The notes under the pieces: model-generated | The model's database searches: none | Told to the model about the DNA's origin: nothing | The model's input: the letters and a program-made list of their open reading frames with translations, nothing else | In this document: positions 696 through 26,073 of the stretch, one piece after another | Layout: each line of letters starts with the position of its first letter | How positions within the stretch are numbered: the first letter of the stretch is position 1 | Program-made: the position numbers and the translations under genes | IMG/VR virus record: IMGVR_UViG_3300049847_000240 | Location: 1-26,073 of that record | DNA length: 26,073 nt | Reading direction: 5' to 3' (one strand) | DNA from: a virus

Positions 696-2711
696 TCATA
701 CAAGTTCACACTTGTCGCCAGCACAAGCGTACGATTTAGCCCCTTCCGTAGCGTCTTCCATCTCAAATTGAGACAATTGTGAATAATCTATCTCTTTGAA
801 ATTCTTAAGTAATTCTTCATACTCTTCTTTTGTTACCGCTTCGTATGGCGCTTGTTCGTATTTGTGGTTCTCTAGGGGCAAGAAGGCGATTCCGTTGACA
901 ATATCCCAATTTTTATATACCCAGTTGCCAACTTCGAACCATTCATCGTCTTTAACGTAAACAGTAATTGACGCATTGTGTTCACACCAATTTGTTTGAA
1001 CTTTCTTGTACCACTCAAGCTGCTCTAATGCACTGACTTTATCTGCAGTGATTGCATTTTTAGGAGCTTTACATGGAAACGACACTACCCAGGTATTTAC
1101 CTTTTCTTCGGTCCACTCTATGCCTGCGTCAAATATCGGTGAAATAGACTTAGCCTTAAGCATTGCTGAATTAGCATGCGCTGAAGGAGATAAAGGCTCT
1201 AGAACCTTAGCGAGTTCGGCTTGATATGCCTTCTCTGCTTTTGCCCAATCCTTCTTACGTTGGCCATTCTCAGGCGAAATAGAGATCTTCTGTGCTTTAA
1301 GCATCTTTAGTAGCGGATCTGTAGAGCTGATTCTATAACGCCTAATGTAATATTTAGCAAATCGTGGATGAAGTCCAGAGGCAGAGTCCACTAGCTGAGA
1401 GACGGTACCGCTCGGCTTAACGCATGTGATAGCAGCAGGCATGTTGATACCCATAATGTGAGAGGCCTTTCTAGCGACTTTAATTGCACGAGACTTCAAC
1501 ACCCTTAATGCTTCTGGAGTAAGAATAGCAGGAGCGTCCTGTTGACCTGTTAGAGATACCCCTAAGAGTCTCTCTTCTTCACAATTCTCTTTCCATTTCG
1601 GATTCAAATAAGGAAAGTGAGTAAAAGTAGATTGAATAACTCCAATCCATGTAGCCGTCTCCACCTTGTCTAATAGCTCATCAAGATCATCTTCTGGCCT
1701 AACTACTATTTCAGACAGGTTGCAGAACTGCATATCTCTTAACTGAATTTCTCCGCAAGGATTAGTTCCTTCGATTAAGGCTGCATTTCTTCTACTGGGA
1801 GCAACTTTCCTAGCAGCTTCTAGATTAAATATTCCTCGCTCTCCTGTTCCAGACGATGCCAATGCCGACCATTCCTTAAGAAAATCGACTGCAGACGGTT
1901 TCGTTTCGTAAACGGCGGAATTGTTTGACATCCAGCGTTTCACTGGGAAATCTCCGGTTTTAGCTCCACGCATGACATCATCGTTTAGGTCTGATAGGCT
2001 AATTTCAGAAGATCTGCGTACGCCGCCTACTACAACGATTTCTGCTACCTGGCATTGGATATCATGACCTTCAAGGGAAGTAAGTTTCCTGCCACGCGCC
2101 TTGTAAAATACGTCTCTAATAAATGAATGTAATGCAATGAGCGGAGCTGGTCCAGACGCTCTACCTCCCATAGTTTTAAGCCTTGAGCCTTCTGGTCTAA
2201 TAAGGTGATATGCCATCTTCAAGTCAAGTCCTGCGTATAAACTAATCACTAAGGCCTTTGTACTATTGGCCCATCCTGCTTTAGAATCTTCAACTACATG
2301 CGTAGCGTCTGAATACTGAATAACGGCAGGAACTTCCGGCAATTGCGAAATACTTGATTGCCTCACGCTGAAGCCGTATCCAGTGCCACACATAAGGATA
2401 TAAAGAGATTCTGCGAAGGCTACGGTTGCACTCAGCTTCTGAAATGAACAGTTGTACATTGTGGTATTATCAGCTTCTGCTGCTGAACCAGCGGCCCACA
2501 TAGCTCTCATTGACGGCATTACTTCGAATGCCAACATGCGTTGGCGCATTTTGTTGACAACCTTTTCTGGTATAGTATCTTTTCTGTGCTTTAAAACGAA
2601 AGTGATGTATCGTTCAACAGTTTCAGGCCAAGTCTCGCGCCGACCGAGTTCGTCAATCCACCTAGAGTAAGTGCGTATGTATACGAATTCTGCCGCGTTA
2701 TTGCGAAACAT
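696..2711 (-). CDS. nrdJ: Adenosylcobalamin-dependent (class II) ribonucleoside-triphosphate reductase
   Basis: Reduces ribonucleotides to deoxyribonucleotides using B12, supplying precursors for phage DNA synthesis. The 671-residue protein matches the monomeric Lactobacillus leichmannii-type RTPR family. Its N-terminus carries RTYSRW and RRETWPETVERY (residues 13-35). The first redox Cys is C88 (MYNCSF). The active-site block GTNPCGEIQL gives N317, thiyl-radical C319 and E321; C330 (QFCNL) lies 11 residues on, the same spacing as C408/C419 in RTPR. The tail ends with C663-x4-C668, matching the C731/C736 dithiol. It is a little shorter than the ~740-residue reference, so some family loops are trimmed. 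The start is supported by AGGAGG five bases before the ATG. It follows the resolvase gene by 27 bp, probably in the same transcript. All catalytic residues are present. Confidence 0.95.
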   Translation of the reverse strand: MFRNNAAEFVYIRTYSRWIDELGRRETWPETVERYITFVLKHRKDTIPEKVVNKMRQRMLAFEVMPSMRAMWAAGSAAEADNTTMYNCSFQKLSATVAFAESLYILMCGTGYGFSVRQSSISQLPEVPAVIQYSDATHVVEDSKAGWANSTKALVISLYAGLDLKMAYHLIRPEGSRLKTMGGRASGPAPLIALHSFIRDVFYKARGRKLTSLEGHDIQCQVAEIVVVGGVRRSSEISLSDLNDDVMRGAKTGDFPVKRWMSNNSAVYETKPSAVDFLKEWSALASSGTGERGIFNLEAARKVAPSRRNAALIEGTNPCGEIQLRDMQFCNLSEIVVRPEDDLDELLDKVETATWIGVIQSTFTHFPYLNPKWKENCEEERLLGVSLTGQQDAPAILTPEALRVLKSRAIKVARKASHIMGINMPAAITCVKPSGTVSQLVDSASGLHPRFAKYYIRRYRISSTDPLLKMLKAQKISISPENGQRKKDWAKAEKAYQAELAKVLEPLSPSAHANSAMLKAKSISPIFDAGIEWTEEKVNTWVVSFPCKAPKNAITADKVSALEQLEWYKKVQTNWCEHNASITVYVKDDEWFEVGNWVYKNWDIVNGIAFLPLENHKYEQAPYEAVTKEEYEELLKNFKEIDYSQLSQFEMEDATEGAKSYACAGDKCELV

Positions 2712-7358: not shown

Positions 7359-7639
7359 TAAAACCTCGTGGCCGCTTCAAGATCTTTGCGATACTGTTCA
7401 GAACGAGTTTTGCAGTCCGCCATAAAAGCCTTCTTCAGGTCAGATATGGTTTTAGAAGGTCTTGTTTCATCGAAATGGATGACTTCCGCGCAACCAGTGA
7501 AATATGACTTCTCGGCTGAAAAGTAATAATTCTGTTGCAGGATATCGAATACTCGACCGTCATTGTTGCCAATAGCAAGAAGCATATATACGACATACAC
7601 TGCGAATGCTCCATAGGCTATATGGTAAATCTTATTCAC
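7358..7639 (-). CDS. Small membrane-anchored protein, unknown
   Basis: A 93-residue protein with one hydrophobic segment near the N-terminus (residues about 5-23, IAYGAFAVYVVYMLLAIG). A soluble tail of ~70 residues follows, with two Cys (CAEV and DCKT). It is likely a single-pass inner membrane protein or an uncleaved signal anchor. The start is a GTG at 7639 with GGAG six bases before it, overlapping the chaperonin stop by 8 bp. Its stop overlaps the next ATG (TAATG). It does not look like a holin (one membrane segment, long soluble tail), although small membrane proteins of phages are diverse. Function unknown. Confidence 0.7.
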   Translation of the reverse strand: MNKIYHIAYGAFAVYVVYMLLAIGNNDGRVFDILQQNYYFSAEKSYFTGCAEVIHFDETRPSKTISDLKKAFMADCKTRSEQYRKDLEAATRF

Positions 7640-9422
7640 CTTGCTCTCCAGTGCTTACGCTGCCGCGTTCGCCTATAGATGCCTGAAAGCGTCTAACAAA
7701 ACGCTCTTCTTCTCTGTCTGCGTCAGCATCTCGCTTAAATGCAATGATACCTCCAAGAGTTCCAAGCAACGAAGCGATAGATATGCTATTACGCACTGCT
7801 TCTGCTATTGCAGGTAACGAATCTAAGAGATCGAACTTGTCGACCCACTTCTCATCAGGAATATCAAAGGTCTGAGATTCATTTTTAAGCATGTCATATA
7901 TTTGGGCTTCGGTTTCCTTTTCAACGTAACCGTAATTCTTATACAAGACTCGAACAGGCTCTAGTAGAGCTGCCGCCAAGATAGCCGTCGCCAACTTTTT
8001 AGGATGAGACACTACTTTGTCGGCAAGATTATAAAGGTCTGCAGACATTTTTACTAATACGAATCCTCCACCAGGAACAGCGCCATGCTTAATAGCGCCC
8101 TTGACCGCCATCCATGCATCTTCTGCACGGTCACGGCGTTCTCTAGTCTCTCCCGCAGAAGGACCAGAGATGTTCAATCTAGCTATGCCAGATGTCAGTT
8201 TGCCTATTCGCAAATTCAAATCTTTAATATCTAATTCACTTTCCGGCTTCTCCAATAAAGCTTTTAACTCATCAACGCGGATAGCCAAAGCATCTGCATC
8301 TTCGTTAGCGATCACGATAGACTTAAACCTGCTTGACTCAAATTTCTTTACACGACTGTTGGCGATCAATGCTTGACAGTCCATGTCGTTCAATGAATTG
8401 TCAACTGGATTAAATACTGGACTGCCTGTATATGCTTGCAAATCGTATAAGAAATTCGTTTTGCCATTCCATATTGGAGTTTCAGGAGTTAGGACAGGGA
8501 AGATTTTGATCAAAGAATTTGGATGCACCCAATTGACATGTAGGTCGCCAAGGAAGCTTTCTCCGAATCCATGGGCAACAAGTATTGCGCCGTTATCTCC
8601 ACGACCCGACTCTTTTATGGCATTGCCAAGTTTCGACATAGCATCAAACACTTGAGACATGTCGTTAATTACCCCATCGAAAAGAATGAACAGGGGATTG
8701 TTTAATGCAACCATGGTGCCTGTTTTGTCGTTAATAAATCCGTTAGCAGAATTACGGCAAGACTGCTCATATCCTGTTTCGATGCTATAGCCATTGACTC
8801 TCTCAATCGAGATTTTACTAGCTCCTTGACTTTCGACAATTGTCATATTGCCTTCTTCGCCAACTAAATCCATTGCATCAATGATAGACTTGGCCAACTC
8901 ATTGTCGCCATTGCCAGATAGCGTTGCCACTTTAGTCAACACTTCCGAATAGTTGTCGCCATTAACTTCAATCTTGAACGAATCGATTTTCTTCATTAAA
9001 AGCGGGACGAGTGCTTGCATCTCCCGAACTATCCGTTGAGGACTAACTCTATTGTTTTTGCTTACAACTTCGGCTATAGATTCTGCTATCGCAAACGAAA
9101 GTATGGTCGCCGTAGTTGTACCGTCGCCTGCTTCTGTCGCAGTGCGAGTAGAAGCGTCTCTGGCCGATTCCAAGATGAGTTGTTTTACGGCAGAGTCGAA
9201 CCCTAGATTCTTAATGACCGTCACTCCGTCTTTAGAAACAATCGGTTTCATATTAATTTCAGGACGCTCAATTAAGACTTGTTTGCCGCCAGGGCCGAGT
9301 GTAGCTCCCACCATTTTAGAAATATATGCCAAAGTTGCCAACACCTCTTCTTGCAGCTCATCGGACGAAGGAACCATTATTTTCCCAGCCGATTTAGGTT
9401 TTGCCGTTTGAAATAAGCTCAT
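7632..9422 (-). CDS. GroEL-like group I chaperonin
   Basis: ATP-driven protein folding chamber, probably for phage structural or replication proteins. The 596-residue protein keeps the ATPase residues of GroEL: LGPGGKQVL (42-50), DGVTVIKNL (D65), AGDGTTTATIL (D100, Thr 102-104) and the C-terminal equatorial block ERRDRAEDAW (D435) with AVPGGGF (448-454). The apical domain (about 195-380) is divergent and has extra sequence around 290-345, and the Gly/Met tail of bacterial GroEL is absent; it is ~50 residues longer than E. coli GroEL. AAGGAG six bases before the ATG fixes the start, which overlaps the upstream stop as ATGA. Phage chaperonins such as that of phage EL are known and can act without GroES; a possible GroES-like partner is at 13106-13441. 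Confidence 0.92.
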   Translation of the reverse strand: MSLFQTAKPKSAGKIMVPSSDELQEEVLATLAYISKMVGATLGPGGKQVLIERPEINMKPIVSKDGVTVIKNLGFDSAVKQLILESARDASTRTATEAGDGTTTATILSFAIAESIAEVVSKNNRVSPQRIVREMQALVPLLMKKIDSFKIEVNGDNYSEVLTKVATLSGNGDNELAKSIIDAMDLVGEEGNMTIVESQGASKISIERVNGYSIETGYEQSCRNSANGFINDKTGTMVALNNPLFILFDGVINDMSQVFDAMSKLGNAIKESGRGDNGAILVAHGFGESFLGDLHVNWVHPNSLIKIFPVLTPETPIWNGKTNFLYDLQAYTGSPVFNPVDNSLNDMDCQALIANSRVKKFESSRFKSIVIANEDADALAIRVDELKALLEKPESELDIKDLNLRIGKLTSGIARLNISGPSAGETRERRDRAEDAWMAVKGAIKHGAVPGGGFVLVKMSADLYNLADKVVSHPKKLATAILAAALLEPVRVLYKNYGYVEKETEAQIYDMLKNESQTFDIPDEKWVDKFDLLDSLPAIAEAVRNSISIASLLGTLGGIIAFKRDADADREEERFVRRFQASIGERGSVSTGEQGE

Positions 9423-15422: not shown

Positions 15423-15855
15423 AGTAGATATTTTCAAGGCTAAGTTCAAACTTGGTATGATTAAACTTCTAGGCCTGTCAAGTTATGTCGACAGTATTGT
15501 AGAAGATAAGGATTGCGAAATTCGCATGGCTAAACGCAATCTTGAGCAATTGCAAAAGAAATATGAATATGTTGCAGACGAATTTGGCTACTACAAGCAG
15601 AAGGCTCTTGCGACTATATCAGAGAAGGTTCATCTGGATTATGATAAAATTTCTGGAGACTATCCGATTTTGATCGTCAAGGCTAACGATAGCACTCCCT
15701 TAAACCAAGACATGTTTACCCGAATCAGATATCATATTAATCAGGTTTGTCCAAATATCAAATTGATCATGTTCTTGAAAGAAGGCATGAAAGTCGAAGA
15801 GTTGGACGACGATAATCTTAGACAAGCAGGACTTAGGCGCATAACTAATGAATAG
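15412..15855 (+). CDS. Hypothetical protein between terminase subunits
   Basis: A 147-residue protein with no recognised family. Residues 35-65 look coiled-coil (MAKRNLEQLQKKYEYVADEF). The C-terminal half is alpha/beta with ISGDYPILIVKAND and NIKLIMFLKEGMKVEEL. A longer frame starts at 15355, but I choose the ATG at 15412 because GGAAGG lies six bases before it and it overlaps the upstream stop by only 11 bp. It overlaps the large terminase ATG by 8 bp. A packaging accessory role is possible from position only. Confidence 0.7.
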   Translation: MGNRVDIFKAKFKLGMIKLLGLSSYVDSIVEDKDCEIRMAKRNLEQLQKKYEYVADEFGYYKQKALATISEKVHLDYDKISGDYPILIVKANDSTPLNQDMFTRIRYHINQVCPNIKLIMFLKEGMKVEELDDDNLRQAGLRRITNE

Positions 15856-17722
15856 TGTTTTCAATCAGGCGATAGCCGATACATTTTTAGTAAAGTTCGA
15901 TACCAAGAAGCAAATGAAGGATTGGATCTTCAACTTTATTGGTTTGGACTTTCCTGATAGTCATGTCGATCCAGACAGCAATGCCAGTCCTATGGATTGG
16001 ATGTTTGAGGTCTATACCATGTATCGTCATAACCGTGGCAACGAATCGCCAGAGATATTAGTAATCTCTAGCCGAGAGAGCTACAAGACTCTTTCTGAAG
16101 CGGTTTTTGCGATTATATGTATGATACATTTCGGTGCCATGATTGCACATATGGCCGCAATTGTTCCGCAAGCAAGTGCAGCTCAAAAGTACATTGAAGA
16201 CTTTTTACGCAAGATTGATCCTTACATGGGGTACCATAAACTCAGTATCGATTCCAAGAATAGCAAAGAAGTTGTAGTGAATATGCCAGATAATACGAAG
16301 GCATATATGAAAATCATCGTTTGTACTTTGACAGGAGCCAATTCATCTCATACCAACATTTTCACTATTGATGAAATTGATACCATTAGATCTCAAGAAG
16401 GCATTCGTGCATACAAAGAAGCGCAGATGATTCCTGGAGTGTTCAATGGCCAACATCCAATAACCATCAAAACGTCTACTTTGAAATTTCCTGGTGGACT
16501 GTTTATGAAAGAGTGGGACAGAGCTAAGAAAGAAAATTATCGCGTTTTTAAATGGAATATCATAGACATCACGGAATATTGTCCGACAAGTCGCCATCGT
16601 CCTGATCTGCCGATGGAAGAAAGATTCATTGCAGACAGCTTGCCCTTAAGATCTCTTACCAAATCTCAGTACGACAATTTGACCGATAAAGAGCGATCTA
16701 AATTTAATCGAATCGAAGTTATGGGAGGATGCGCTAAGTGTCCAATCATGCCAGTATGTAAAGGTCGCTTAGCAAAAAGAAATCCGGCAGATACTGGCGG
16801 ACTATGGAAACCTATCGACTTTACGATTTCTCAATTTAAAAAGACTGATCCAGATTTAGCAGAATCTCAATTGATGTGCTGGAAGCCATCTTCTCAAGGT
16901 ATGGTGTATCCACGTTTTGTCGATACTCCAGACGGAGAAGGCAACACGCTAACTATCGCTCAGGCTTGGGAAGCCTTTACTGGAGTTAAGGCAGACAAGA
17001 ATACAGACCTTCGTGCGCTTACAGATACAATGCTGTCGAGAGGAGTCAATTTCTACTGTGGAGTAGACTGGGGACATTCTCATGCCTTTGCCATAACCGT
17101 ATCATGTTGCGTTCTTGGCGGACAGTGGTGGCTGGTAGATACATATTCAGTCTCTGGTCTAGAATTTGAGCAAATGATGGATCTGGCCAAGAGCGTTAGA
17201 GATAGGTATCGTCCAGTGAAATGGTTTCCAGATAATTCTGAGCCGATGTTTATTAAAGCGTTTAAAAAGAATCGCATGCCTTGTATTGATTTTAAAAAAG
17301 ACGTTAGAGGCGGGATTGAGCTGGTTCGTGGACAAATAGTCGACGCTTCTGACCGAAGAAGACTTAAGGTTATTAAGCACGAGCGCAACGATATGGCGCT
17401 TCGTATGTTTGCAGAACATACATTTAAACTTGACACCAATGGCAATTTGACCGATGAACCTGACGATTCTGAAGTAGCAGACGTGGGAGATACCGTTCGG
17501 TATCAAGCCCAATGCTTATTTGATCCAAAATCTAAAATAAGGGTACCGACAGGCCACATACCTGTTACTCATCAAGAGTATGCTGCTCAAAATCAGTCCG
17601 TGGCACATCAAGACTGGCTATCTCAAAAGGTTAGGGAGCTAACCGGAGGCACAAACAGCGATTCTAAGGGCAAAGACAAGTCAAACTCTGTTCTTTGGGA
17701 TTTTGGTGACGGCAATGAATAA
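15848..17722 (+). CDS. Large terminase subunit (ATPase-nuclease)
   Basis: Motor and nuclease of DNA packaging. The 624-residue protein has a variant Walker A SSRESYKT (74-81), Walker B IFTIDEID (171-178; D175, E176), a coupling motif KTST (208-211), and an RNase H-like nuclease with CGVDWGHSHAFAI (D407), WFPDNSEP (D462) and VADVGDTVRY (D548). Between the domains it carries four Cys: C245, C295, C298 and C304. Their C-xn-C-x2-C-x5-C spacing matches the 4Fe-4S staple of AddB/Cas4-type nucleases, so an iron-sulphur or zinc site is likely. The tail (600-624) is Ser/Lys/Asp-rich. The start overlaps the upstream gene by 8 bp; the ribosome site is weak. Confidence 0.93.
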   Translation: MNSVFNQAIADTFLVKFDTKKQMKDWIFNFIGLDFPDSHVDPDSNASPMDWMFEVYTMYRHNRGNESPEILVISSRESYKTLSEAVFAIICMIHFGAMIAHMAAIVPQASAAQKYIEDFLRKIDPYMGYHKLSIDSKNSKEVVVNMPDNTKAYMKIIVCTLTGANSSHTNIFTIDEIDTIRSQEGIRAYKEAQMIPGVFNGQHPITIKTSTLKFPGGLFMKEWDRAKKENYRVFKWNIIDITEYCPTSRHRPDLPMEERFIADSLPLRSLTKSQYDNLTDKERSKFNRIEVMGGCAKCPIMPVCKGRLAKRNPADTGGLWKPIDFTISQFKKTDPDLAESQLMCWKPSSQGMVYPRFVDTPDGEGNTLTIAQAWEAFTGVKADKNTDLRALTDTMLSRGVNFYCGVDWGHSHAFAITVSCCVLGGQWWLVDTYSVSGLEFEQMMDLAKSVRDRYRPVKWFPDNSEPMFIKAFKKNRMPCIDFKKDVRGGIELVRGQIVDASDRRRLKVIKHERNDMALRMFAEHTFKLDTNGNLTDEPDDSEVADVGDTVRYQAQCLFDPKSKIRVPTGHIPVTHQEYAAQNQSVAHQDWLSQKVRELTGGTNSDSKGKDKSNSVLWDFGDGNE

Positions 17723-18765: not shown

Positions 18766-20928
18766 ATGGCAAAAGAAAAAACTAAGAAAGAGCCTATCGT
18801 TGCACTCGATCCTATTGCTCAGAAGCTGCTTGATGATCAAGCGCAGGGCGAAGGGATAGATAAGTCTGAAAAGACTGCAACAGAGAACGACGGCGGCGTT
18901 TTAGGAGCCATTGTAAAGGCGTTACAGACACACTCTCGATCCCAAGTCGAGAGGATGGCCTTCGAAGTAGATCCTAAAGCCAATTATCAAGGTACATCAG
19001 GCTACTATCGCTTAAAGCAAGGCCTTACTCCTGACCATATCATTAAACGTATCATGGGTCCGCAAGGCGATGACCTTGTGTGTCAAATCTTGCAAGCTCG
19101 TTCGAACATTTTATCTGCGTTTGGACGCCCACGCACAAGTCGATTCTCTACAGGATTTGAATTTCAACCTCTATATAAGAGCTTCTTTTTAAAAGATGAG
19201 AAAGAAAAGGCTGCACTTCAAGATAGAATTGAATCTGCTAAAAAGAAACTGTTCCATTGCGGTGGCGGAGATCTTGAAGAAGAATTTGAACGTCCAACTC
19301 TTTCACAGTTTATAAAATTAATCACACGAGACGGTCTTGGTTACGGTAGATTTGCCGTTGAGCGCATCTATAAGCTAAATCCAAAGACTGCTAAGAAAGA
19401 ATTGTACGCATTCCGTGCATCTGACGGCGGTACTATTTACAAGCTTTTACCTAATCGCAAAACAGATCAATCTGTACGTGCAGAAGCGTTGCGTGAATTG
19501 CAACGATTGAAAGATCATAGGTTTGATGTTGAAAAATACAAAAAAGATGAATACAAGTGGGTGCAGGTAATCGACGGTAAACCTGTACAAGCTTTCTCTG
19601 AATCAGAAATGATTGTTTACAATCTATATCCGGTTACAAACGTGGAGTATAACGGATATCCGCTGACCCCTATTGACCAATCCCTTAATGCCATCACTAC
19701 GCATATTAATATTACGATGCATAATAAGCTGTACTTCCAAAATGGTCGCGCAGCGCGAGGTATGCTTGTATTCCGCTCTGACACTATCGACGAAGGTGCA
19801 GTACAAAAGATTCGTTTACAGTTCCACCAATCGATCAATTCAGTTCAAAACGCATGGCGCATGCCAGTATTTGCAGTAGGTTCTGAAGATAATGTCGAGT
19901 GGCAATCAATCGACATTGCAGGTCGTGACGCAGAGTTCCAGTACTTAATGGACAATAATGCTCGCGTGATTTTATCTGCGTTCCAAATGTCTCCAGAAGA
20001 ACTTCCTGGATATGCACATTTAGCTCGCGGAACTAACACTCAGTCATTAGCTGAAGCTGACAACGAATGGAAATTGACCGCAGCGCGAGACGTAGGTCTA
20101 CGTCCGCTCATGAGCGACATTCAAGACTTCTTGAATAAACATATTTTACCTGAGATCGATGCGGACTTAGCAAAAACTCACCAAATAGTTCTTGCAGGCC
20201 TTGATAAAGACAGTCCTGAAAAGGAATCGACACGTTTAGCTCAAGACATGCCGATTCACATGTCTTATAATGAAGTGTTGGAGCATGTAGAAAAAGATCC
20301 AGTGCCTACCGAAATGGGCGGAGACTTTCCTTTAAATCCTCAATTCCAAATGACTCTCGACAAGTATATGACTGTCGGAGAAATTTTAGAAAACTTTTTT
20401 GGTCGTAAAGAAGCCGGAAAAGACCCTCGTTACCAATATGTTCGCGATCCATTCTGGATGCAATATCAACAGATGATGCTTCAAAAGGCTCAACTTGCTT
20501 TGCAGCAACAAATGATGATGCAGCAGCAAATGATGCAGCAGCAACAGGCTATAATGGGAGGCGGACAAGAAAGCGGCCACGATGGCGGCCAGGGTGATGG
20601 TCAAGATGGCGGAAACTCTCAAGATTCCGATCAAAATAGTGGCCAAGATAGCGGACAATCTGCCGGACAATCTAGCAATTTGCCGAACCAATCTGGACCT
20701 CCACAAGAGATAGCTCAGAAGAATCAAGACTGGGCAACACAGAACTATATGGTTCTAGAAAAAGCTATTCAAGATAATCATAATTTCATTTCCAAAACTC
20801 TACTCAAACGCCATAAAGATATGGTCAATAAGCATCTCAAAGAATGGGCCAAGAAGTCTAAAGAGACTGCGGACGATCTTGAAGATATCTTTAAAGAACA
20901 CGAGCATAAGCACGACGATAAGGAGTAA
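18766..20928 (+). CDS. Portal protein
   Basis: Forms the dodecameric ring at the head vertex through which DNA is packaged. The 720-residue protein has a portal layout: a charged N-terminus, a wing/clip region with LICRDGLGYG-type sequence (here LITRDGLGYGRFAVERIY, about 185-202), a long central helix region with YNGYPLTPIDQSLNAITTH, and SAFQMSPEELPGYAHLARGT before the stem and crown. The C-terminus (about 570-640) is a Gln/Met run then a Gly/Gln/Ser/Asp-rich stretch, followed by a charged His-rich tail (EHEHKHDDKE). The low-complexity part is unusual for portals. GAGG five bases before the ATG fixes the start. It follows terminase by one gene and is followed two bases later by the head morphogenesis gene. 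Confidence 0.85.
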   Translation: MAKEKTKKEPIVALDPIAQKLLDDQAQGEGIDKSEKTATENDGGVLGAIVKALQTHSRSQVERMAFEVDPKANYQGTSGYYRLKQGLTPDHIIKRIMGPQGDDLVCQILQARSNILSAFGRPRTSRFSTGFEFQPLYKSFFLKDEKEKAALQDRIESAKKKLFHCGGGDLEEEFERPTLSQFIKLITRDGLGYGRFAVERIYKLNPKTAKKELYAFRASDGGTIYKLLPNRKTDQSVRAEALRELQRLKDHRFDVEKYKKDEYKWVQVIDGKPVQAFSESEMIVYNLYPVTNVEYNGYPLTPIDQSLNAITTHINITMHNKLYFQNGRAARGMLVFRSDTIDEGAVQKIRLQFHQSINSVQNAWRMPVFAVGSEDNVEWQSIDIAGRDAEFQYLMDNNARVILSAFQMSPEELPGYAHLARGTNTQSLAEADNEWKLTAARDVGLRPLMSDIQDFLNKHILPEIDADLAKTHQIVLAGLDKDSPEKESTRLAQDMPIHMSYNEVLEHVEKDPVPTEMGGDFPLNPQFQMTLDKYMTVGEILENFFGRKEAGKDPRYQYVRDPFWMQYQQMMLQKAQLALQQQMMMQQQMMQQQQAIMGGGQESGHDGGQGDGQDGGNSQDSDQNSGQDSGQSAGQSSNLPNQSGPPQEIAQKNQDWATQNYMVLEKAIQDNHNFISKTLLKRHKDMVNKHLKEWAKKSKETADDLEDIFKEHEHKHDDKE

Positions 20929-20930
20929 TC

Positions 20931-21698
20931 ATGCTGATCACTCCTGCGCTCAGAGCATTAATTGCCGAAAAAGTTGATGACCTTTTTTTCGACTTAAAGG
21001 CTTCTTTGCTTGGCAGATTCTTTAAAGGTCCGTCTATATTTTTTGAAGTCGCAAAAGATGTAGATCAGACAGAAACTTTGGAAGGACTATATAGACATAC
21101 CATTGGACTATTATTCGGACCTCAAGCCGTTAATGCCGATATCGATAACGAAATGGGCCATATGGCTGAAATCACTGGCAATTATCTAGATGCCAGTCGA
21201 TTAAAACTCCTTAATAAAGTCTTGGTAGACGTACAAGCTGCGCCATCTGCTGCAGAAGCTGCTAAGGCAGTTAGAGAAAATTTAGACAAGACGACAAGTT
21301 ACGTCAATATGTTGGTGGCCAACGAGGCCAGAACTGTACAGGCATATGCCAATAAAGATGGTATCGGTCGACTTGGTGCGTCAATAGGCATCGAAGACCC
21401 TATCGTATGCAAGTTAGGGTTTGTCGACCATAAATTATGTAAGAACTGTAAAGAGTTATGGCACACGTCCGGCAATCTGCATGTACCTAAAGTCTATAAG
21501 TTATCTGAGCTTCAAGATGGATACATGAAAGTCAAAAAAGGCGAAAGCCCATTCCCGACGCACGGACCTACACATCCTAATTGCAGGCATACTACGACTA
21601 TGGTCCCTCCAAACTTTGGCTTCGACTCTAGCGGCACCATTAAATTCGTTAGTTTCGGTTACGACGTATATGCTGATCAACGCAAAAAAGGCTCTTAA
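20931..21698 (+). CDS. Head morphogenesis protein (SPP1 gp7/Mu F-like)
   Basis: A minor capsid protein that usually binds the portal and aids head assembly or DNA ejection. The 255-residue protein has the family's C-terminal signature: VANEARTVQAYANKDGIGRL (129-148), a C170-x2-C173 pair (LCKNC), and HGPTHPNCRHTTTMVPP (211-227) with the typical His-Pro-x-Cys-Arg block. These Cys/His may bind zinc. The N-terminal 130 residues are helical. AAGGAG lies five bases before the ATG, two bases after the portal stop. The position directly after the portal is the usual one for this family. Confidence 0.8.
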   Translation: MLITPALRALIAEKVDDLFFDLKASLLGRFFKGPSIFFEVAKDVDQTETLEGLYRHTIGLLFGPQAVNADIDNEMGHMAEITGNYLDASRLKLLNKVLVDVQAAPSAAEAAKAVRENLDKTTSYVNMLVANEARTVQAYANKDGIGRLGASIGIEDPIVCKLGFVDHKLCKNCKELWHTSGNLHVPKVYKLSELQDGYMKVKKGESPFPTHGPTHPNCRHTTTMVPPNFGFDSSGTIKFVSFGYDVYADQRKKGS

Positions 21699-21729: not shown

Positions 21730-23433
21730 ATGGGTACTAAGATTGACGGTCCAATCACATCTGAAGCAATAGATAGTTCTGGCGAAGTTTTAGATCTGAA
21801 AGGTCATGATATTACTGACTTTTTAGAAGGCAGAGCTTTCGCTAACTGGGAGCATGAGAATAAGTCTCCTGAGACTATCGTGGGCCGCTTTATCTATGCA
21901 AAGAAGATCTTTAAGGCCGAAGACTGCGAGAATGATCGCCAGAGAGAGTTCTGGAAACAGCTCAAGCTTCCGTTTCTGTACGGCATCTGCGAACTTATGG
22001 ACGCCGAAGACCATCCAGGAGCCGTGGCAGTAGCCGCAATGCTTCGTTACTTTAAAAACAGAAAAGAGAAAGTCCAAATTGGATTCTCAGTCGAAGGCAG
22101 CACCTTACATCGTGACGGCAATTTGCTCGAACGGTCAGTAGGTCGCCGCGCAGCTATCACGTTACGTCCATGTAATAGAACGTGCTGGGTTGATATGATT
22201 GGCGACGCTGAAGCAAATACGATGTTGGATAAATCAGAATACGGTATCGGACATTCAACTCATACCGTCGAAGTCGATTCGGCTATCCTAGAAGATGCTC
22301 CAGATAATAGCTCTAAAAAGGACTATTATGACATCAGAAAGGCCTTAACAGCTCTAAATAAGACACTTACGGCAGGCAACTCCAATGTTGCTCCAGGTCA
22401 ATTAGTAGGCGGTGCTGCATTAGTCAGAGAAGATATCGTTGGTCATTCTATGAAGAATCGACTGAAAGCTGCCCTTAGAGATTGGAATAGAACCAGACCC
22501 TTAAAAGAAGCGATCAAGGCAGCTCTGCCAGAAGTCGCGGATAGTTATATCGACCATTTTACTCAGCTCGCTCATGATATGAGTTTAAGAAAAAGTCATC
22601 CCATTAGAGTTGGTGCGCAACATGCTCAGCCGTCTAGTGATGATGAACAGAAAAAGTTAGCAGAAGGATTATACTTTGATACGAATCAGAAATACGAACC
22701 AGGCCACTCAGAACACAGTGGCTCACATAATAGTTTTTACAGACTCAAGAACGACTCAGGGCAGTCAGTGTTTGCAAAACCATCTAAACAAAGCCGCAAT
22801 GCTGAAGCTTATTATAAAGTTGCTTCCGATTACTTTGGTCTTGGTAAGCATGTTCCAGTAACAGCCACTGTATCTCATGAAAAGTTGCATGGCGGTCAGC
22901 CTATTCAGATTATGGAATTTTCATCAGGACAAACTCCTATGGAAAATGAAGAGAAATATAACGATGCGCGTAACGAAGCGAGAGCTAGTGGGCTGCATCA
23001 AAAATTGCACATCATGGACCATGTTTTAGGACATTCGGACAGACACGGCGGTAATGTAATAGTCGACGACAATAATACGATTAAGCACATCGATAACGAT
23101 AGTGCCTTTTCCTATACCGCTATGATGCCAGATGAGTTAAACGCAGACGGAATGTCGCCAGATGACGATGCTCCTGGTGCCGATCCTATTCACCCAGACG
23201 TGGCTGCATGGTTACATACTCTTGATGTTAAACATTTGGCCCATCACCTATTTAAGCAAAACATTGGACCAGAAAAGATTAAGCAAGCATTGGCAGCCCT
23301 TAAGATGTATAAAAAGGCAGCTACTAATCCGAACTTAACCTTAAGTCACGCATGGAACTTGGCGCACGGAGCCATAAATTCAGTTGCACCAAGAAAGGAC
23401 GTCAATGAAAGTCTTGACAATAAAATCGCATAA
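21730..23433 (+). CDS. Prohead protease fused to a C-terminal kinase-like domain
   Basis: N-terminal ~190 residues match phage prohead proteases: SSGEVLDLKGHDITDF (16-31), ANWEH with catalytic H42, IVGRFIYAKKIFKAEDCEND (50-69) and VQIGFSVEG with catalytic S120. A helical linker (190-305) follows. Residues 310-567 look like a PI3/4-kinase- or HipA-like fold: VFAKPSK (348-353; candidate ATP Lys), NAEAYY (E359), catalytic loop HSDRHGGNVIVD (435-446; D437, N442) and metal site HIDND (D455, D457). I infer a packaged or head-associated kinase released or processed during maturation; the target is unknown. The ATG at 21730 has no ribosome site and follows the 18-bp repeat. It lies after the head protein gene, where a protease is expected. 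Confidence 0.8.
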   Translation: MGTKIDGPITSEAIDSSGEVLDLKGHDITDFLEGRAFANWEHENKSPETIVGRFIYAKKIFKAEDCENDRQREFWKQLKLPFLYGICELMDAEDHPGAVAVAAMLRYFKNRKEKVQIGFSVEGSTLHRDGNLLERSVGRRAAITLRPCNRTCWVDMIGDAEANTMLDKSEYGIGHSTHTVEVDSAILEDAPDNSSKKDYYDIRKALTALNKTLTAGNSNVAPGQLVGGAALVREDIVGHSMKNRLKAALRDWNRTRPLKEAIKAALPEVADSYIDHFTQLAHDMSLRKSHPIRVGAQHAQPSSDDEQKKLAEGLYFDTNQKYEPGHSEHSGSHNSFYRLKNDSGQSVFAKPSKQSRNAEAYYKVASDYFGLGKHVPVTATVSHEKLHGGQPIQIMEFSSGQTPMENEEKYNDARNEARASGLHQKLHIMDHVLGHSDRHGGNVIVDDNNTIKHIDNDSAFSYTAMMPDELNADGMSPDDDAPGADPIHPDVAAWLHTLDVKHLAHHLFKQNIGPEKIKQALAALKMYKKAATNPNLTLSHAWNLAHGAINSVAPRKDVNESLDNKIA

Positions 23434-24010
23434 TTCAGATCATACACTAGCAGAGATCAGAACAGATGGCAGACTTGTAGAGTTTATCGTTGATAATACT
23501 AATGGCAAATTATCTAAGCTCGTAGGTCGCGAATATTCTAAATTAGAAGCGTTGCTTGCAAACTCATCTGTCCTTTATTCTGAAGAACCAAAAGTGGCCA
23601 CTGCACATTTAGTTCGATATGTATTAGATAACGGCGACGTTGCAGAGATTACGACCGATGGTCGCACCTGTCTTCTAAACGGCAAGATGTTGACTGAAGA
23701 AGAAAAGGTTGCGCTATTCAATGCTATCAGAACTGGCGAATTAAAAGTTGCCCATAAGGCAGATCGCGAACGTCCAGTACCTGTTTTACCGCCGATGCAG
23801 TCTATGTCTCAGCCTCAGAAACAAACTGGCATGGATAAAGACATTACTTCGCATTTTAAATCCATGTTGATCGATAAAGAAAAAGATGAATCTAATTCTG
23901 ATATCGAATATGATCATGAAATTGAAAACGCAGATCTAAGCAGTGCCGAAGATCCCGCATATACGAAACGTCTTATGTATCTTTTAAAGTATGGAGAAAA
24001 ACGTGGCTAA
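23405..24010 (+). CDS. Hypothetical protein with an internal repeat
   Basis: A 201-residue protein of unknown family. Residues 14-24 (TLAEIRTDGRL) and 79-89 (VAEITTDGRTC-type) are an internal repeat, suggesting two copies of a small beta unit. A Pro/Gln-rich linker (123-140) and an acidic helical tail (145-195) follow. I choose the ATG at 23405 rather than one at 23384 because AAGGA lies six bases before it; it overlaps the protease-kinase gene by 29 bp. It overlaps the next gene by 8 bp. A scaffold or head-associated role fits the position but is unproven. Confidence 0.65.
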   Translation: MKVLTIKSHNSDHTLAEIRTDGRLVEFIVDNTNGKLSKLVGREYSKLEALLANSSVLYSEEPKVATAHLVRYVLDNGDVAEITTDGRTCLLNGKMLTEEEKVALFNAIRTGELKVAHKADRERPVPVLPPMQSMSQPQKQTGMDKDITSHFKSMLIDKEKDESNSDIEYDHEIENADLSSAEDPAYTKRLMYLLKYGEKRG

Positions 24011-26073
24011 GTTTGAACAAGACACACCGTCAGATTTTCTCCATAATCATGTACAAGGCATAACTGGAAGTCCAGCTAGGCTACATTCTTCAGAAGGACA
24101 AGACGACTTAGAAGAAGTCTCTTCTCATCCGAATACATCTACAGAGACATTGTCCCATATCCATGCTCATAACTTTGACAAAGAAACTGGTTCGGTTAAA
24201 AATGCTGACGTCGCACACAGTCTATTAAAGCATCCAAATTTTCCTGCGGGATTAGCCGAAGACTTCGCGCAAAAACATTATACCAACAAAACATTCGACA
24301 ACGGTTTATTAGAAGCGGCTTCTAATGTTAAGGGTGTGAACCATAAAGTATTCGAAGATATTGCTAATAAGCAATTAGAAAGCGGCGAAGAAGTTGGAGA
24401 CTTCCATTCTTTAAAGCCGGAGTACTATTTGAACTTACTCCAAGGTCGCCCCGACCCTAAGTCTACAGGATTAGGTCTGCCCTCAGACGAAGCCAATGAA
24501 GCGCATAATGAAAGAATAAATAGCATCAACCATCTTGCATATCAAGGCTTGGCTAAGACGCCGCATCATACCCCAGATACTATCAATCAAACCGTAGACA
24601 CCTTACTGTCCTTAAAAGATAAGCCTACCGTTAACGATGTAGACAATACAGGATTGGCGTCAGCTTCTGAAAGATTTATTAAAAACAGGCCAGAGCTGAC
24701 AAGGGATCATTTAAACAAACTGCAGTCAACTCTAGAAGGCTCAGATCCTGAAAAATGGGATGACGTAACGCGAGCCGTTGCTGAACATAAAAATGCAGAC
24801 CCAGCATTGCTTTCTAAAATAGCACTTTCGTCTGGTAATTCTAAAATGCAGGCAGAAGCCATATCTAATCCTGGGCTGCCAGAAGAAACTCGAAAAGCCT
24901 TAGTTAAGAAAGCAGCCAAATTAGATCAGGGATATTTTGGGAATTCAATAGCGGCGTTGGCTGAAAATCCTTCTACTACTCCAGAAGAGTTGTCTGCTAT
25001 AGTCGGCAACGATAAGATTAGCAGATATACGAGAGCCAGGCTCCTGCAAAATGAAAAAGTGCCGGAATCCGCTGTGGCTCAATTCTGGGAAAGTTCTGAC
25101 AAGAAAACGTCGGCCTCGGAAGATATTTTAAAAGCGCATAATGTACCGACTAAGGTCTTGCAAGAATTAGTTAAGCACACTAATCAAGATATAGCGGTAG
25201 CGGCTCTGAAGCACCCTAAAGTCAATAAAGAAGTGTTGGACATAGCGTTAAAGCGTAAAGCCCCAAAGGTGAGCAATTTCGCTCGTCAGCATCCGTTAGT
25301 GGCAGACCAAGAATTGGTCAAAGGTGTTCTAGAAAATAAAACGAAAGCGTCTGATATTTTAGGCAAGAGATCTCAGGAAATTATTCGAGGTTTGACCGAA
25401 AATCAGCAAAAAGGTATAATGAAGCATCTGAGCGATAGGTACTCAGACAATGCTGCTTTAGGACATAAGGCTACGCCAGAGACATTAAAAGAGTCTCCAG
25501 AGGATTTCATTAGAGCCAAAGCTCATATGGCGATTAGCCCACATCTATCTCCAGCAGACCAAAACAAGCATGCTAAAGATATCATAGAGCAGTTCTTGGA
25601 CAAAAATCCACACAATCAAGCAATGGATTTGAGCTACAATCGTCAAGGAGATCAAGCCACCGTTGGTGCGCTCAACACTATGGCCGCTGGTGGCAATAGA
25701 TTGGCCCAAGAAGCCGTTTTAGAGCATGCGCCTATGGTACTTGGTTCGGATATACTCAGTAATGATAAAATGCCTGCCCATTTTGCTAATGAGTTAGTAG
25801 ATAAGTTGGTCGAACATCACGCTAACCCTCCTAGACTGATAGCCTCGCACGGAGGCGCAGCACATGTAGACGTTGCAAATTCTTTACGCAGGATTATGAA
25901 TAATCCGAATACTCCTCCAGAAAATATATTAAAGATGGCGAACATTCCCAAATTCTGGGCCGATGTTGACGACGATTCTAGAGATACTTCAAGTGCAGCT
26001 AAGTCTGCAGCAGAAATTCTAGATGGAAAAATGTCAGAGCTGCACCTCGACACTAAAGACTCTTATTACAACG
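24003..26073 (+). CDS. Long helical-repeat (alpha-solenoid) protein, C-terminus outside the window
   Basis: The frame is open from a GTG at 24003 to the right edge, at least 690 residues. GGAG six bases before the GTG supports that start; an in-frame ATG at 23991 lacks a ribosome site. The product is hydrophilic and made of irregular helical repeats with short His/Asn-Pro turns: SSHPNTSTETLSHI, LLKHPNFPAGLAEDF, SNPGLPEETRKALV, ENPSTTPEELSAIV, AHNVPTKVLQELV and LKHPKVNKEVLDIAL. This resembles leucine-rich variant or HEAT-like solenoids. No enzyme motif is seen in the visible part. Following the head protease genes, it may be an internal or head protein; that is inference. Confidence 0.75.
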   Translation, partial: MAKFEQDTPSDFLHNHVQGITGSPARLHSSEGQDDLEEVSSHPNTSTETLSHIHAHNFDKETGSVKNADVAHSLLKHPNFPAGLAEDFAQKHYTNKTFDNGLLEAASNVKGVNHKVFEDIANKQLESGEEVGDFHSLKPEYYLNLLQGRPDPKSTGLGLPSDEANEAHNERINSINHLAYQGLAKTPHHTPDTINQTVDTLLSLKDKPTVNDVDNTGLASASERFIKNRPELTRDHLNKLQSTLEGSDPEKWDDVTRAVAEHKNADPALLSKIALSSGNSKMQAEAISNPGLPEETRKALVKKAAKLDQGYFGNSIAALAENPSTTPEELSAIVGNDKISRYTRARLLQNEKVPESAVAQFWESSDKKTSASEDILKAHNVPTKVLQELVKHTNQDIAVAALKHPKVNKEVLDIALKRKAPKVSNFARQHPLVADQELVKGVLENKTKASDILGKRSQEIIRGLTENQQKGIMKHLSDRYSDNAALGHKATPETLKESPEDFIRAKAHMAISPHLSPADQNKHAKDIIEQFLDKNPHNQAMDLSYNRQGDQATVGALNTMAAGGNRLAQEAVLEHAPMVLGSDILSNDKMPAHFANELVDKLVEHHANPPRLIASHGGAAHVDVANSLRRIMNNPNTPPENILKMANIPKFWADVDDDSRDTSSAAKSAAEILDGKMSELHLDTKDSYYN

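Follow-up and report, generated by a model that had tools for sequence, protein, structure and literature searches.

Prohead proteases enter the core while the shell is still open, and it is there that they are processed to their mature form. In phage SPN3US the protease gp245 autocleaves and sheds its own 64-residue C-terminal propeptide (PMC10052503), and in T4 Alt and the internal proteins (IPs) enter the head, undergo cleavage by the prohead protease and reach the host by ejection (PMC9026906). Multi-enzyme proteins delivered by the virion have been described before, as have head proteins that bear effector tails (PMC5512222, PMC5576092); among the polyvalent proteins an assemblin-like peptidase, when present, is always C-terminal (Iyer et al. 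2017, PMC5512222). Here we describe an open reading frame (ORF) of 567 amino acids (aa), running from an ATG at 21730-23433 on the plus strand of a 26,073-nucleotide stretch of viral DNA (IMG/VR record IMGVR_UViG_3300049847_000240, positions 1 to 26,073; the window), in which a prohead protease is fused to a kinase-like domain. We think it rather probable that the product is a prohead protease acting as a cargo carrier, with the kinase packaged, cut free and ejected into the host. A literature search covering few subscription journals found no description of an N-terminal prohead protease carrier combined with a copied capsid-arm release tag and a PI3K/PI4K-like kinase cargo.

Results

The prohead (head maturation) protease and the kinase-like C-terminal domain lie in one ORF, as the original prediction from the DNA had it: H42 falls within NWEHEN, S120 within FSVEG, and the DRHxxN and IDND motifs are present as D437RHGGN442 and I454DND457. 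The ORF divides as follows, in window coordinates, with the basis of each assignment in brackets; a bar in a motif marks the predicted cut.

21730..23433, plus strand: whole ORF, prohead protease, capsid-arm-like segment, helical tail and PI3K/PI4K-like kinase, 567 aa (homologues Mx1 WNM70322 and IMG/VR loci)
21730..22209, plus strand: putative protease domain, residues 1-160; H42 codon 21853-21855, S120 codon 22087-22089 (SPO1 gp3.2, phrog_1028, invariant residues, model)
22210..22350, plus strand: linker, predicted to be disordered over residues 163-195 and then helical from 196 to 214, with the helix extending into the site (AlphaFold2 profile)
22351..22437, plus strand: capsid-arm-like segment, residues 208-236 (LNK|TLTAGNSNVAPGQLVGGAALVRED) (profile search, K-[AST] counts, SPO1, phage 812)
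within 22351..22437, plus strand: self-cleavage predicted to follow K211 (codon 22360-22362) or, as the alternative, E234 (chain start of the phage 812 major capsid protein, MCP)
22438..22596, plus strand: predicted helical tail, residues 237-289, in about the region where the cargo-free SPO1 protease (gp3.2, 256 aa) ends (AlphaFold2 profile)
22591..23355, plus strand: PI3K/PI4K-like kinase domain, residues 288-542; K350 22777-22779, D437 23038-23040, D455 23092-23094 (Pfam, alignment, AlphaFold2, Foldseek)

Homology identifies the N-terminal domain as a predicted head maturation protease of the SPO1 gp3.2 type. The SPO1 protein matches it with an expectation value (E) of 1e-12 in pairwise BLASTP, SPO1-group proteases align to window residues 5-169, and D15, E19, H42, S120, E122, G123 and N149 are invariant across 40 protease homologues. 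The PHROG family 'head maturation protease' (phrog_1028) matches 20/27 homologues, the best at 6.9e-14 and the window itself at E=0.016. An AlphaFold2 model of residues 1-160 has predicted local distance difference test (pLDDT) values mostly >90; PDB searches with the protease, including a fold search with the model, gave no match at E<=0.001.

The window has a relative in Myxococcus phage Mx1, whose protein WNM70322 aligns with residues 5-289 at 38% identity (E=2e-58); the protease parts share 38% and the kinase parts 25%. A scan of IMG/VR with the window protein alone returned zero relatives, and those described here came from a protease alignment that included Mx1; none was found in the 84,980 bacterial and archaeal genomes searched. 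The protease-kinase fusion is recurrent, occurring in Mx1 and in about a dozen other metagenomic phages besides the window. The kinase of WNM70322 is unremarked in GenBank, though the family is visible there, and a literature search on Mx1's protease found nothing.

The C-terminal half appears to be a PI3K/PI4K-like domain. PF00454 (PI3_PI4_kinase) matches 12/12 homologues (best 4.8e-8), and all 13 kinase domains compared have K350, R438, N442 and D455, while 12 of the 13 have D437, at identities to relatives of 22-36%. An AlphaFold2 model of residues 287-567, made from an input alignment that left out the Mx1 row, reached a pLDDT of 83.6 and a predicted template modelling score of 0.83. Foldseek matched this model in the PDB to PI3K (5.8e-5), CtkA, LepB and PI4K-IIbeta (template modelling, TM, score 0.44), with E from 6e-5 to 3e-4 and probability 1.00, and in BFVD to PI3K/PI4K-like proteins of phages, archaeal viruses and giant viruses (best E=8.7e-12, TM 0.62). 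A sequence-profile search of the PDB with the kinase placed poxvirus H7 first (4e-4), followed by PI4KA (5e-4). Absence of a kinase fold had been named beforehand as the result that would overturn the original prediction; the model and its fold matches instead point to such a fold with the catalytic residues kept, which may be an active kinase, and imply that DRH and IDND would meet at one site. Comparison with PI4K was a good guess, as the fold match shows, while HipA and Fam20C, proposed alongside it, came up only for some members, weakly, or at paralogues. The motif is ID(N/H) rather than IDF, which recalls type II PI4K.

Between the two halves lies the stretch LNKTLTAGNSNVAPGQLVGGAALVRED. 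The MCP of these phages, like that of SPO1, has an N-terminal arm homologous to residues 208-236 (NKTLTAGNSNVAPGQLVGGAALVRED) of this stretch. A profile built solely from the protease stretch and run on all six-frame ORFs of the loci gave convincing matches only to protease ORFs and to the first ~60 residues of the MCP in the same phages (E 1e-13 to 3e-6). The two copies in Mx1 read FAKAMEAGNFNAAPSTLQGGSALQSE in the protease and LRKAMEAGNFNAKPSTLVQGSAMQIED in the MCP, and the duplication is present in SPO1 too, where protease and MCP share 40% over 63 aa (E=2e-10). The PHROG 'major head protein' also matches 3/27 protease rows, probably through this segment. At the site, K-[AST] is found in 32/35 protease rows and in 24/24 capsid-type rows, a set that includes one truncated protease ORF (L061).

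The PDB holds two chains of the phage 812 MCP, one of 463 aa and one of 439 aa from which precisely the first 24 residues are missing, so that it begins directly after the equivalent Lys. We take this chain start to mark the maturation cut and place the corresponding cut at K211|T212, where the window ORF is predicted by analogy to cleave itself, the step from substrate to protease being the part we infer. No paper giving the SPO1 or phage 812 cleavage site was found, and the assignment is based on the PDB chain lengths. The suggestion that the linker could be a self-cleavage site has thereby gained a concrete candidate, with cleavage itself still a prediction. A cut at E234|D235, favoured earlier for its conserved Glu, was displaced by the phage 812 chain start and is kept as the alternative. 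AlphaFold2 predicts disorder between two helices for residues 215-237 despite their conservation, as expected of a cut site.

What follows the junction differs between phages:

kinase alone: window, L025
ParB-like domain (weak) and kinase: L005
extra domain of ~350 aa and kinase: Mx1, L003, L004, L007, L010, L012, L014, L020, L027
the same extra domain and GGDEF: L017, L021, L022, L029, L032, L034
GGDEF alone: L016, L030
GNAT or nothing large: L036-L048 group

The GGDEF (diguanylate cyclase) domain in this slot matches PF00990 at 1e-15, and phages with a kinase at the end of the protease ORF often have a GGDEF domain in the ORF that follows or in one close by (Mx1, L003, L004, L007, L010, L012, L014, L020, L027). 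In a protease-domain tree of 40 rows, a quick one with many weak nodes and with some ORFs cut by contig ends, a kinase is present in the protease ORF at 14 tips, and the kinase label changes at least five times across well-supported branches. Both the differing contents and these changes are as expected of exchangeable cargo.

Where GGDEF is fused to the protease (L016, L021, L030, L034 and relatives) its motif is intact in most, and Mx1 has the nearby gene WNM70324; virion-borne cyclic di-GMP signalling through protease-linked or nearby GGDEF domains is possible. The ~350 aa domain between protease and kinase (L003, L010, L018 and others) is conserved and carries the motif LAPKTARY...VPDTHF.R. 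An assignment of this domain by eye to the HhH-GPD DNA glycosylases (APKTARY...VPDTHF.R) was unsupported by Pfam and PDB profiles.

Further kinases were found with the kinase alignment in 20/33 records, and paralogues in the same phages exceed the Pfam cut-off strongly (94.7 bits); scans with narrower kinase alignments matched kinases in this phage group only. Two loci encode three tandem PI3K/PI4K-like C-lobes (L060 8177-11953 and L061 8674-12351), preceded in L060 by a NUDIX domain (PF00454 1e-26 for ORFs combining NUDIX with three kinase repeats), and in Mx1 an ART-PolyVal/NUDIX/GNAT protein adjoins a second kinase. The same late region of these phages carries other conflict enzymes too (ART-PolyVal, NUDIX, GNAT and further kinases).

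The neighbouring genes in the window are:

15848..17722, plus strand: terminase large subunit (phrog_5653 E=4.7e-12)
18766..20928, plus strand: portal protein (PF04860 E=3.5e-11; phrog_15361 2.8e-19)
20931..21698, plus strand: upstream gene, minor head (SPP1 gp7 / MuF-like) protein (phrog_115 E=4e-4; TIGR01641 E=6.5e-4)
23405..24010, plus strand: next gene, 201 aa, without convincing Pfam match or database match

As terminase, portal and minor head genes precede it, the ORF occupies the position expected of a head maturation protease. In Mx1 and relatives the MCP gene lies downstream of the protease; the window ends before its own. The window has the Mx1 order of GroEL, helicase, sigma-factor-like gene, phosphoesterase, terminase and portal, which makes it a relative of that phage. 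By eye, the 201-aa product resembles the short region preceding GGDEF in the next or fused ORF of relatives (L003 9641-10873). Elsewhere the window encodes a ribonucleotide reductase of the B12-dependent type (696-2711, minus strand; RNR_Alpha 5e-11, RNR-II insertion domain 1e-4), where Mx1 has class Ia genes; a pyridoxal phosphate enzyme of alliinase/aminotransferase type, an unusual phage cargo (6095-7153, minus strand; Alliinase_C E=5e-52, Aminotran_1_2 E=7e-11); a phage GroEL, also in Mx1, that possibly folds capsid protein (7632-9422, minus strand; Cpn60, E=1.6e-38); and a long leucine-rich-repeat-variant repeat protein, open at the window end (23991-26072, plus strand; LRV_2 E=7e-6).

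Discussion

The fusion, the kinase fold with its catalytic residues, the segment shared with the capsid protein and the recurrent differences in cargo were computed, and from them we infer cleavage, packaging, ejection, kinase activity and a target along the following route. The fusion would join the prohead core along with the protease. After shell closure the protease would act on the capsid protein at K|A and on its own chain at the copied site, predicted as K211|T212, giving a protease of ~24 kDa and a kinase of ~39 kDa with a capsid-arm-like N-terminus. The kinase would be retained in the head, at roughly the copy number of the protease, then ejected with the DNA to phosphorylate a host target early in infection. 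An enzyme placed behind a self-cut site would in this way be loaded at protease copy number and freed at maturation. The original prediction envisaged delivery of the kinase into the host or its action on virion proteins; as the cargo types (kinase, cyclase, acetyltransferase) are all signal-modifying, we favour a host target over a role in assembly.

Several observations weigh against this proposal. In T4 gp21 drops from 72 to 3 copies in the head (PMC9026906), and in SPN3US and T4 most of the C-terminal or core protease fragments disappear from the head (PMC10052503, PMC9026906), so that a kinase released in the same way could leave or be degraded. The window C-terminal half scores 25.1 bits against PF00454 (E=2e-5), below the curated cut-off of 27.1, and for this reason we call the domain PI3K/PI4K-like and not a member of PF00454. 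The prediction of an upstream Lys/Glu pair stands for the Lys (K350) and is less certain for the Glu, since the family's conserved Glu is one residue earlier; at that column, as read from the alignment, the window has Ala358, and E359 follows one residue later. In the nearest kinase relative (L005 5992-7974; 36%) HRNHGN replaces DRHGGN and the catalytic Asp is lost, so that its kinase may be a pseudokinase. Judged from the sequences, this loss and the shifted Glu of the window suggest that part of the family may be inactive. Finally, the shared segment could serve as an arm that binds the shell and not as a cut site.

That last point leads to the alternative that survives best, although we regard it as somewhat unlikely: the segment would bind the capsid lattice uncut, and protease and kinase would remain one chain on the inner shell. 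The SPO1 similarity does reach ~40 residues beyond the Lys, longer than a cut site requires. However, the 439-aa chain of phage 812, lacking the first 24 of 463 residues up to the equivalent Lys, indicates that this position is probably cut in the substrate, and related proteases autocleave near their own C-terminus. A second possibility, which we consider improbable, is that the kinase has its substrates in the prohead, namely capsid, core or portal proteins, and is discarded after the cut, controlling maturation and not the host. Being in one chain with the maturation protease it would be present in the prohead core when needed, and C-terminal fragments of prohead proteases are usually removed; yet a kinase-free protease serves for assembly in SPO1 and in phages of the same group, so that the kinase is not a general need of assembly, and the slot can also hold a diguanylate cyclase, an enzyme without a substrate in assembly. 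It is likewise improbable that the C-terminal domain is a non-catalytic kinase fold, a scaffold or DNA/phosphate-binding module comparable to poxvirus H7, its top PDB profile match (E=4e-4): scaffold tails are common on the prohead proteases of other phages, the catalytic Asp is a His in L005 and the window Glu is off by one, but K, D, R, N and the metal-binding D are kept in 12/13 domains at 22-36% identity and paralogues in the same phages score well above the Pfam cut-off.

Taking the carrier proposal further, we suggest, tentatively and with some doubt, that in a lineage of large tailed phages the prohead protease is an exchangeable cargo loader, with the capsid-arm copy as targeting and release tag, and that enzymes (PI3K-like kinase, diguanylate cyclase, acetyltransferase) are swapped between phages to reprogramme host signalling right after injection. 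If true, this would be a route of cargo loading absent from the literature found in our search, in which the capsid-maturing enzyme carries effectors stoichiometrically and frees them through a copied capsid cleavage site. It would also provide a sequence rule by which virion-delivered effectors could be recognised in metagenomic data, namely K|[AST]..AG..GG.AL..E following a prohead protease; phage PI3K/PI4K-like signalling enzymes testable in a culturable host (Mx1 on Myxococcus); and a suggested modular tag with which foreign enzymes could be loaded into phage heads.

Of the known systems closest to the window, Mx1 WNM70322 ('putative prohead protease', 1239 aa) has the same protease, capsid-arm-like segment and C-terminal kinase and the same order of terminase, portal, minor head-like gene, protease and MCP; it differs in an extra domain of ~370 aa between protease and kinase, the latter unannotated. 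SPO1 gp3.2 and its MCP gp6.1 have the homologous protease and the segment common to protease and MCP, whereas gp3.2 ends soon after the segment, with neither kinase nor other cargo. SPN3US gp245 and T4 gp21, like the proposed window protease, cut their own C-terminus and the N-terminus of the MCP, but the C-terminal piece is a short propeptide and not an enzyme, and the SPN3US motif is AXE, not K|A. The T4 internal proteins and Alt, as proposed here for the kinase, are enzymes that enter the prohead, are cleaved by its protease and pass into the host by ejection; they are encoded by separate genes with short N-terminal targeting peptides, whereas the window cargo is fused behind the protease. 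The MuF polymorphic toxins (PMC5576092) similarly join interchangeable C-terminal effector domains to a head morphogenesis protein, but there the carrier is the MuF portal-associated protein, without a protease and mainly in temperate phages; Pfam, PHROG and TIGR searches gave no match to a MuF domain in the window fusion ORF, and the gene that does resemble MuF is a separate ORF upstream of it. The polyvalent proteins (PMC5512222) likewise combine unrelated enzymatic domains, including kinases, GGDEF, GNAT and ART, in one polypeptide, with a virion association that is known there and predicted here; in the window, unlike in those proteins, the protease is N-terminal and the kinase is PI3K/PI4K-like.
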